Source: Mesoaciditoga sp.
GTDB lineage: Bacteria > Thermotogota > Thermotogae > Mesoaciditogales > Mesoaciditogaceae
Length of the DNA: 64,000 bases
Direction: 5' to 3'
Assembly: GCA_002878315.1 (NCBI GenBank)
Contig: PNIW01000011.1
Span: 1 to 64,000, forward strand
This document shows positions 51,768-53,922 of the stretch, in pieces. Every line of letters begins with the position of its first letter. Position 1 is the first letter of the stretch. The notes beneath the pieces were generated by a model. The model was not told the DNA's origin, searched no databases, and saw only the letters and a list, made by a program, of their open reading frames with translations. Position numbers and translations under genes: made by a program.

Positions 51768-52022
51768 AATACGGAGATAATTTGCGCCTCCAAACGTCAT
51801 TTGTAAAACGTAGAAGTGGCTTAAATGACAATTTCAGTTTTATCTTACGCTCACGTCTTAAGATCATATCGCTATGAAATACTGTTACTTCGATCCGTTT
51901 TGAATTTATGAAAAATATGATATGATTATCTCAGCGATAAAAAGAGAAGGATCCCAGATCAAAGCGGAGGCTTAACCCTTGTAAGATGTAAGTTAAAAAC
52001 CAAATGAAAGGGGGTAAGTCTC
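51768..52022 (+). other. Intergenic leader with inverted repeats before the peptide gene
   Basis: This noncoding stretch holds GTCATTT (51796–51802)/AAATGAC (51823–51829), ATCTTA (51842–51847)/TAAGAT (51859–51864), a possible promoter TTGAAT (51900–51905) with TATGAT (51921–51926) at a short 15-base spacing, and CCCTT (51976–51980), which could pair with AAGGG (52008–52012) in the ribosome-binding site of the peptide gene. No known riboswitch consensus is recognised. Confidence 0.4.
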
Positions 52023-52112
52023 ATGAAAGAAAAAATATTCAAACTCGCTATCGTTGCCGGTGGACTTCTCAGTTTAATCCTTGCCGCCGTCGGAAGTTCA
52101 AAATGGTGGTAA
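52023..52112 (+). CDS. 29-residue hydrophobic membrane peptide (untracked small ORF)
   Basis: ATG at 52023 follows AAAGGGGG; the stop TAA is at 52110. The peptide begins with a basic stretch MKEKIFK, then one hydrophobic helix (LAIVAGGLLSLILAAVG), and ends SSKWW. It has no cysteine, so it is not a typical AgrD-type thiolactone precursor. It lies 17 bases before the HD-GYP gene and both have good ribosome-binding sites, which strongly suggests it is translated as part of that operon. It could be a one-TM regulator of the following membrane proteins or a secreted signal precursor; the function is unknown. Confidence 0.72.
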   Translation: MKEKIFKLAIVAGGLLSLILAAVGSSKWW

Positions 52113-52129
52113 GTTGAAGAGGTGAAGAC

Positions 52130-53401
52130 GTGTCATTATCGCTGAAGTTTTACATAGCAATTATCGCAATTATTGCTGGGGTGCTAATAGGCACCCTCCT
52201 CTTCTTTGAACCTATCGAGCCGTGGTGGATCATCGTCTTATGGGGCCTAAGCGGATGGGTTGCCGACGCCTTCCCCGTTGAGGTCAGAAAGATAAACGGA
52301 AACATATGGATCATAGGATTGAGCATGACCTTTAATCTTTCTGCGGCAGTCCTCTTTTCTCCGATAAGTGCAATGATAATAGGCGCCATTGCAGCAACAT
52401 CTCTAAATGAAATGAAAATTACACAATGGTACAAAATACTTTTTAATGTCTCACAAATCTCGATAGCAACCTTCGCGGCAGCCTTTATATACAGATGCTT
52501 TCCCGTCAATTTGGCAATAGTTAAGATCTTCGCCATCGCAATAGCAATAGCTATTTATGCTATCGTTAACAACTCATTTGTCGCCGGCGCCATAAGCCTT
52601 GCAACAAAGAAGAAGTTCAAATGGATTCTAAAGGACGTTCTCATAGACTTTTTTGGACTTAGCATCTTCATTTCTCTGGCAATTTCGTACCTTGCAATAT
52701 ATTTATATCCCTACGTTCATTTTTATGTCGTCTTTGTCATACTCGGTCCTTTGTTAGGAATAAGATTTGTAATAGATCTTTACAGAAAATTTCTCAACAC
52801 AAAATTAGAGGCCATGTATGCCCTGACGAAGGCACTCGAGGAAAAAGATCCGTACACGGCCGGCCATAGCGAGCGCGTGAGTTTGTATTGCGAGGTCATA
52901 GCTGAGAAGGTCGGAATATACGGAAAGCATCTCGACGATTTGAAGATCGCGGCCCAATTGCATGATGTTGGCAAGATCGGCGTAAGAGATCTCGTCCTCA
53001 ATAAACCAGAAAGGCTTACGCTTATAGAATACGAGGAGGTAAAGAGACATCCTATAGACGGTGCAAATATAATTTCCCAGATACCCGCTTTTGAAAGGAT
53101 CGTCGGATGGGTAAGGTACCACCATGAAAGATGGGATGGTACAGGTTATCCGGAAGGATTAAAGGGGGAGGATATCCCTTTAGAAGCGAGAATAATAGGA
53201 ATATGTGATGTCTACGATGCTCTGACTACCAAAAGATCTTACCGAGAAGAGTTCTCCCATGATGAGGCTTTGAAGATGATACTTTCAGAAAAAGGGAAGG
53301 CCTTTGATCCAAAACTCGTAGATGTACTCATCGAAAGCGCTGATGAATTTGATAAGATAAGAATAGAACACGCGCCAGTCTATCCCGGTGTGGAGAAATG
53401 A
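52130..53401 (+). CDS. Membrane-bound HD-GYP cyclic-di-GMP phosphodiesterase
   Basis: A 423-residue protein. Residues 1 to about 220 form about eight TM helices of a MASE-like sensor (IAIIAIIAGVLIGTLLFF; AMIIGAIAATSLNEMKITQWYKILFNVSQ). Residues about 230–400 are HD-GYP: DPYTAGHSERVSLYC, LHDVGKIGVRD, RHPIDGANI and HHERWDGTGYPEGLKG. All metal ligands and the GYP loop are present, so it should hydrolyse c-di-GMP or a related dinucleotide. The start is GTG behind GAGGTGA. It overlaps the DUF5317-like gene by 4 bases. No GGDEF domain is fused to it. Confidence 0.92.
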   Translation: MSLSLKFYIAIIAIIAGVLIGTLLFFEPIEPWWIIVLWGLSGWVADAFPVEVRKINGNIWIIGLSMTFNLSAAVLFSPISAMIIGAIAATSLNEMKITQWYKILFNVSQISIATFAAAFIYRCFPVNLAIVKIFAIAIAIAIYAIVNNSFVAGAISLATKKKFKWILKDVLIDFFGLSIFISLAISYLAIYLYPYVHFYVVFVILGPLLGIRFVIDLYRKFLNTKLEAMYALTKALEEKDPYTAGHSERVSLYCEVIAEKVGIYGKHLDDLKIAAQLHDVGKIGVRDLVLNKPERLTLIEYEEVKRHPIDGANIISQIPAFERIVGWVRYHHERWDGTGYPEGLKGEDIPLEARIIGICDVYDALTTKRSYREEFSHDEALKMILSEKGKAFDPKLVDVLIESADEFDKIRIEHAPVYPGVEK

Positions 53402-53922
53402 TATACATATACGTGATTGTTGCAGCGATTGTAACTTCTTTGATCTTCAAAAGAAATATCTGGAATCCTCTCAATACCAATTTCAAATGGTTTTATCTTG
53501 TATTTATTCCATTTATCCTTGAACTGATAGCAGTTTTTGGAAATTTTGATTTTTCCAATTACCTTACCTCGACCGCTTACGTGATCTTGATAATCTTTTG
53601 CCTGGCAAATTGGCACATAAAAGGGTTCCCTTTCATAACTATAGGCGCAATCTCAAATACGGTCGTAATACTTTTGAACGGAGGAAGAATGCCTCTATCG
53701 AAAAAAACCCTTGTGCTTGCGGGCCTTCCGCCAGATACAATGGATCCAAAACACGTTTTGATAGGACCTGCTACCATTTTACCATTCATGGGAGACATAA
53801 TCCCGGTGAATTTTTTGGGCCTTCATTATGCCTGCAGCATAGGTGATCTCTTCGTCTACACCGGGCTTTTCCTTTTGATATATCTCAACGCAAAAAGAGA
53901 TGTTAAAAATAGTAAGGCCTAA
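53398..53922 (+). CDS. DUF5317-like membrane protein
   Basis: A 174-residue protein with about five TM segments (YIYVIVAAIVTSLIF; FYLVFIPFILELIAVF; AYVILIIFCLANW; ITIGAISNTVVILLNGGRMPLS; IGDLFVYTGLFLLIYL). The GGRMP loop after the fourth segment and the DPKHVLIGPATILPFMGDIIP stretch are what I associate with the DUF5317 family. Its function is unknown. It is translationally coupled to the HD-GYP gene (ATGA), so the two probably act together in the membrane. Confidence 0.75.
   Translation: MIYIYVIVAAIVTSLIFKRNIWNPLNTNFKWFYLVFIPFILELIAVFGNFDFSNYLTSTAYVILIIFCLANWHIKGFPFITIGAISNTVVILLNGGRMPLSKKTLVLAGLPPDTMDPKHVLIGPATILPFMGDIIPVNFLGLHYACSIGDLFVYTGLFLLIYLNAKRDVKNSKA

Follow-up and report, generated by a model that had tools for sequence, protein, structure and literature searches.

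A candidate peptide-signaling module linking a short Trp-tailed peptide, a MASE9-HD-GYP membrane protein and DUF5317 in Mesoaciditoga and other bacteria

The window analyzed here, 64,000 nucleotides of contig PNIW01000011.1 from Mesoaciditoga sp., contains a locus that may encode a three-part peptide-signaling module, in which an exported or displayed peptide with a Trp-containing tail is sensed by a MASE9 membrane domain and controls an HD-GYP domain, with DUF5317 as an obligate partner; the probability of this reading is estimated at about 0.5. In the proposed pathway, the precursor would insert N-in/C-out by means of a signal-peptide-like leader and expose a short tail containing Trp to the exterior. 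The tail would probably be released after a conserved Ala/Gly site, with signal peptidase I or DUF5317 making the cut. The MASE9 membrane domain would recognize the tail (SSKWW in the window), and recognition would alter how the HD-GYP domain fused to it hydrolyzes c-di-GMP or a related cyclic dinucleotide. The obligate partner, DUF5317, would most likely act on the precursor from the outer side of the membrane. Export, cleavage, binding, the sense in which activity would change and the function of DUF5317 are inferred.

The initial annotation placed an unlisted 29-codon open reading frame (ORF) with its own Shine-Dalgarno sequence before a GTG-started HD-GYP gene that is coupled to a third gene by ATGA. 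The sequence bears out these coordinates (Table 1): the stop codon of the peptide is 17 bases from the GTG start, and the 423-aa HD-GYP ORF and the 174-aa DUF5317 ORF overlap by ATGA at 53398. A terminator-like stem-loop of eight pairs (window 52178-52197) lies about 50 bases into the HD-GYP coding sequence and may be due to chance, three such sites being present in the region against 1.8 expected.

Table 1. Features of the candidate module, in positions of the window.
Feature	Position	Strand	Evidence
Candidate 29-aa peptide precursor gene MKEKIFKLAIVAGGLLSLILAAVGSSKWW, ATG to TAA	52023..52112	+	42/103 Thermotogota genomes and other phyla; pN/pS 0.10 in genus
Shine-Dalgarno sequence AAAGGGGG of peptide gene	52007..52014	+	Sequence; kept across genus
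Codons of predicted signal tail SSKWW, after conserved small residue Gly24 (inferred cleavage site)	52095..52109	+	Tail pattern
Shine-Dalgarno region GAAGAGGTGA of HD-GYP gene	52117..52126	+	Sequence
MASE9-HD-GYP membrane protein, 423 aa, GTG start	52130..53401	+	Pfam MASE9 and HD_5; HD-GYP residues intact; structure matches
Part of MASE9 sensor domain matched by Pfam, residues 62-212; model ECF-S-component-like	52313..52765	+	Pfam; structure comparison
Predicted HD-GYP phosphodiesterase domain, residues 233-396	52826..53317	+	Pfam; structure matches
DUF5317 membrane protein, 174 aa, ATGA-coupled; Asn87, Met98-Pro99, Asp133, Gly149-Asp150 invariant	53398..53922	+	Pfam; homolog alignment

HD-GYP orthologs were collected from 61 genomes, and the DNA upstream of each was read for a small ORF. 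A similar peptide, mostly of 25-36 residues, precedes the MASE9-HD-GYP gene throughout Thermotogota (e.g., MKKLWKVFLIMGSFLALLISAVGNIELW), and the pN/pS of its frame (Nei-Gojobori counts) is 0.10, 0.22, 0.22, 0.36, 0.13 and 0.16 in six clades, the value for the genus of the window being approximately 0.10. Judged by these substitution patterns, the peptide ORF is a real gene under purifying selection. When an automatic upstream criterion was applied to 260 unrelated control genes from the window and the fetched loci, there were three matches, two of which were true MASE9-HD-GYP loci, for a false-positive rate of about 1/258; the upstream small ORF is far above chance. No family in Pfam or NCBIfam matched the peptides, and no Rfam family matched the locus. 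Conservation of a small ORF upstream of orthologous HD-GYP genes and coding selection on the 29-codon frame were the two checks set beforehand by the initial annotation, and both came out in its favor. The core of its proposal of an undescribed signaling unit composed of a peptide, a membrane HD-GYP protein and DUF5317 is supported in this respect, and its choice between a peptide that gates the sensor and one that is exported as a signal is a matter of inference.

A profile built from 26 peptides (threshold E<1e-5) found the peptide in 42 of 103 Thermotogota genomes, just upstream of MASE9 genes by coordinates, with one locus per carrier genome, sometimes of two or three tandem copies, and in drafts sometimes split over contigs. 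MASE9 and DUF5317 are each also present in 42/103 genomes, nearly the same ones; where they disagree, the genome is a draft that is of low completeness or interrupted by contig ends. MASE9 matches two of 14 named control genomes, Thermotoga maritima and Thermus composti, and DUF5317 matches those two and no others. In the family that contains Pseudothermotoga (L061-L070), DUF5317 is encoded immediately after panC, elsewhere in the chromosome than the peptide and HD-GYP genes, yet it is present; the distribution of genomes shared even where DUF5317 is unlinked, together with purifying selection in six clades, argues for the module. Beyond Thermotogota, DUF5317 was found in 12 of approximately 287 sampled genomes from other phyla, in 39/50 genomes of one further phylum and in 63/111 genomes of another, which is probably Deinococcota on the basis of its gene content and the Thermus composti control. 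A scan of genome contigs with one DUF5317 alignment gave matches in Thermotogota only, and an earlier, broader alignment was without a conserved stretch; in plasmid and phage collections, DUF5317 was found on one Natranaerobius plasmid and in zero phage. Short DUF5317-like proteins (123 and 128 aa) with no adjacent HD-GYP gene are encoded in two related genomes (L072:4766-5137, in a phage-like neighborhood, and L073:184-570), and some Thermus-like genomes have a second, divergent DUF5317, preceded by a short HD-GYP-like ORF in L183 and with no such ORF adjacent in L184.

Outside Thermotogota, a locus was considered assessable if it had a MASE9-HD-GYP gene linked to DUF5317 and enough upstream DNA. 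A small ORF of the peptide kind, preceded by a Shine-Dalgarno sequence, is present in 49/49 such loci (examples are MKAKVLKALFVLASLLLAGGAHFRW, MKINKAKLISFLISVMALLLAGGAKFRW, MARLVSILLGLLAIVLASGAGFSWR, MKKLAFKIATLIAALVALAVAAGADTTWQ and MKMKKLIARVLVLLGSLIALGLAAGAGFHWK), a partly manual count, since several ORFs were recovered only on visual inspection, owing to an HD-GYP start annotated too far upstream or to Tyr or Phe in place of Trp; set against about 1/258 controls, it favors the module reading. The named carriers are Thermosipho, Pseudothermotoga, Thermotoga maritima, Thermus and Natranaerobius (Bacillota), the last of which has a plasmid-borne peptide of 28 residues, MNKVVLILVTLLGVVLAGGASFTWGGGG, that is absent from the gene table. 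On this plasmid, from Natranaerobius thermophilus (L089, NZ_CP144220.1 28317-38550), the trio is decayed, with the MASE9-HD-GYP and DUF5317 frames each split. One genome that lacks DUF5317 has two MASE9-like HD-GYP genes, one starting at a contig end, and neither is preceded by such a peptide. In L202 (approximately 1150-1215), where a MASE9-HD-GYP gene lies at the end of a contig, the upstream DNA has an odd small ORF ending in Trp, MWLLDLIINLLGKGGDTDW, preceded by a Shine-Dalgarno sequence and without a typical leader; DUF5317 was not found in that genome. When cross-phylum peptide profiles were searched against 2,917 and 1,950 small ORFs, true peptides dominated the tops of the lists with best E values of only 0.004-0.05; with profile similarity this weak, common descent across phyla rests mainly on position and anatomy. 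By its position and co-occurrence, the peptide is linked in several phyla with both MASE9-HD-GYP and DUF5317.

An alignment of 88 peptides, made without supervision, was used to count anatomical features. The hydrophobic core is preceded by Lys or Arg in 86/88, the tail directly follows Ala or Gly in all 88, and the residue preceding this site is Val or Gly in 87. Trp occupies tail position +4 in 64/88, the others having mostly Leu, Phe, Val, Ile or Tyr, and the observation in the initial annotation of a Trp-containing tail holds nearly always and across phyla. The tail is mostly of 4-6 residues, or 11 in Thermosipho-type peptides; some are of only 4 residues, which is short for a pheromone and counts against a signal module. 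The peptide is thus predicted to consist of a signal-peptide-like leader, a small-residue site and a short tail. With leader/tail splits chosen by pattern, and so less independent than the alignment of 88, tails usually differ more than leaders between related species: 0.53 versus 0.08, 0.60 versus 0.14, 0.31 versus 0.17, and 0.50 versus 0.25 in the family of the window. A fifth group shows the same tendency, with tail and leader differences of 0.78 and 0.54, the automatic split being misplaced for some of its members, and group f2 is reversed (tail 0.16, leader 0.24), which counts against a signal.

Tandem copies within a genome show the opposite pattern. In L076 there are three with the same tail, NVTWW, and leaders that are 56% different; in the related L077, two copies share SITWW with leaders 65% different; and in L016, NLEWW occurs twice with leaders 52% different. 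The shared tails are written with different synonymous codons (AAC GTA ACT, AAC GTG ACG and AAT GTA ACC). On this ground, recent gene conversion is rejected as the cause of the identical tails in L076 and L016, but it may account for the nearly identical copies in L021, L075 and L122. A tail that is constant within a genome and usually variable between species is the signature predicted of a signal precursor, and identity of tandem tails despite diverged leaders favors the tail as the part that is recognized. This pattern also bears on the main rival reading, which is possible though tentative, that the peptide stays intact as a subunit spanning the membrane once, a regulatory microprotein that gates the HD-GYP enzyme through binding to MASE9 in cis, with Trp anchoring it at the outer interface and DUF5317 as a third subunit. 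The length, the Lys-containing N-terminus, the hydrophobic core and the C-terminal aromatic residue fit one membrane span, and the peptide is always encoded beside the sensor gene; however, a helix packed on MASE9 should be conserved over its full length, whereas tandem leaders diverge by 52-65% beside identical tails, and the alternating small residues ending in Ala/Gly resemble a signal peptidase site.

Tandem copies and spacing are also relevant to the very improbable alternative that the small ORF is a cis leader peptide controlling transcription or translation of the HD-GYP gene. The ORF is directly upstream, at 17 bases in the window, and candidate intrinsic-terminator-like hairpins occur between the peptide stop and the HD-GYP gene at one locus in Thermotogota and at many of the loci assigned putatively to Deinococcota. 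Such a hairpin would be expected if the peptide were needed in excess, and a leader peptide does not account for an amino-acid sequence that is conserved with low pN/pS, or for tandem copies and a peptide-to-HD-GYP spacing of approximately 16 to 190 bases, which are ill-suited to an attenuator. A riboswitch or attenuator was rejected for want of an Rfam match and because the spacing varies too much.

The 423-aa protein matches MASE9 (E 5.8e-14, 52.9 bits, cut-off 24.3) and HD_5 (2.1e-37, 128.9 bits) in Pfam, in agreement with the membrane HD-GYP protein of the initial annotation, although the eight membrane helices counted there are replaced in the AlphaFold model by about six, followed by a long linker helix. 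The motif residues H278 and D279, H331, H332 and E333, and G339, Y340 and P341 are invariant, and the structure of the HD-GYP half matches HD-GYP phosphodiesterases, one of them bound to c-di-GMP. GGDEF genes are present in 16/16 genomes tested, with eight in the genome of the window. The modeled membrane half, MASE9, resembles ECF S components (TmRibU, 4hzu_S and others) with probabilities of 0.98-1.0, TM scores (target) of 0.52-0.68 and E values from 0.09 to about 1, and the weakness of these E values counts against the module. The ECF S component fold binds small ligands, and an S-component-like MASE9 fold would suit a short peptide ligand, which is not proof of one. Coevolution of the tail with MASE9 had a raw partial r of 0.44, but permuting within clades gave p=0.67, which is not significant, and it is not counted as evidence for a signal. 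In favor of the module are the Ala/Gly site, the Trp at +4, the identical tandem tails, the S-component-like MASE9 model, the intact HD-GYP residues and the occurrence of GGDEF genes. In the literature covered, which excludes most subscription journals, no paper linked MASE9-HD-GYP to a peptide or to DUF5317, none on MASE9 was relevant, and none concerned HD-GYP proteins with ECF S components.

The third protein, called "DUF5317-like" at the outset, belongs to the family outright: its Pfam match to DUF5317 (PF17248) has an E value of 2.7e-29 and 102.6 bits against a cut-off of 25. Residues G83, N87, M98, P99, D133, G149 and D150 are invariant in 92 homologs, among which there is no invariant Cys or His, and by positive-inside reasoning D133 and D150 would lie outside the cell. 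Nothing was found in support of the transporter function suggested in the initial annotation; the topology and invariant Asp fit an extracytoplasmic enzyme better, if weakly. We hypothesize that DUF5317 is a membrane aspartyl protease acting on the precursor. The DUF5317 model (pLDDT 72) has no fold match in the PDB, and in profile comparison its SxGD aligns on the NxAD motif of LspA better than all 60 shuffles do, but at a probability of only 23%, values that count against the module and, with no Pfam match, make kinship with LspA a hint at most. Like LspA (signal peptidase II, Peptidase_A8), DUF5317 is a small polytopic membrane protein, with an invariant SxGDxxxxxG aligned on the catalytic NxAD; unlike LspA, it has neither an NxxDR motif nor a Peptidase_A8 match, and the peptide has no lipobox Cys. 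The literature covered contained no paper on DUF5317.

In Agr systems, the AgrD precursor, the AgrB membrane peptidase and the AgrC membrane receptor kinase function together, and the signal part varies between strains (PMC12312760). The candidate module resembles Agr in co-encoding a short ribosomal precursor that has a membrane-active leader, a small polytopic partner and a polytopic receptor, but its tails are mostly of 4-6 residues (11 in some) with no conserved ring Cys/Ser and no charged C-terminal extension of 14-15 residues; DUF5317 has no AgrB family match in Pfam and, unlike the Cys protease AgrB, no invariant Cys/His; and the output is HD-GYP rather than the histidine kinase of AgrC. 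Precursor anatomy, the partner and the absence of an AgrD family match for the peptides in NCBIfam rule out membership in Agr. A WW motif is carried by the type-II XIPs of streptococcal ComS (PMC5131902), and XIP is reported to act on the cytosolic regulator ComR after entering the cell (PMC6211226). Like ComS, the precursor is very short and hydrophobic and its predicted signal is the C-terminal few residues, but the candidate receptor encoded next to it is an HD-GYP protein of the membrane, and the DUF5317 partner is always present; no sequence homology is claimed. Precursors of Rgg/SHP and enterococcal iCF10/PrgQ systems are of the same short hydrophobic type with a C-terminal signal. The domain architecture and catalytic motif residues are those of other MASE9-HD-GYP phosphodiesterases; this one differs from those described in the literature covered in being tied to a peptide and DUF5317. 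There is a real chance that this putative new form of peptide signaling is of a separate kind.

A bolder reading, that bacteria of many phyla secrete ultrashort Trp-tailed pheromones, sensed directly by MASE9-HD-GYP and matured by DUF5317 as a new family of membrane proteases, is put forward as a speculative possibility. The peptide anatomy would be identical if the tail were instead a reporter of envelope status, with DUF5317 or signal peptidase activity or the state of the membrane setting the amount of free tail, and MASE9 reading the envelope rather than the population. The named carriers have no known common social behavior, as such a reporter would allow, but tails that are usually more variable between species than leaders are better suited to private signals, and the envelope explanation is considered unlikely.

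If the module reading is correct, which short synthetic peptides make easy to test in laboratory thermophiles, MASE9 and DUF5317 would acquire both a ligand and a role, a family of peptides too short for annotation to capture would be added, and signaling between cells or from the envelope would connect to the turnover of cyclic dinucleotides directly, with no kinase or transcription factor in between. If the pheromone reading is true, peptide signaling would enter second-messenger control in one step, for example in Thermotogota and Deinococcota.
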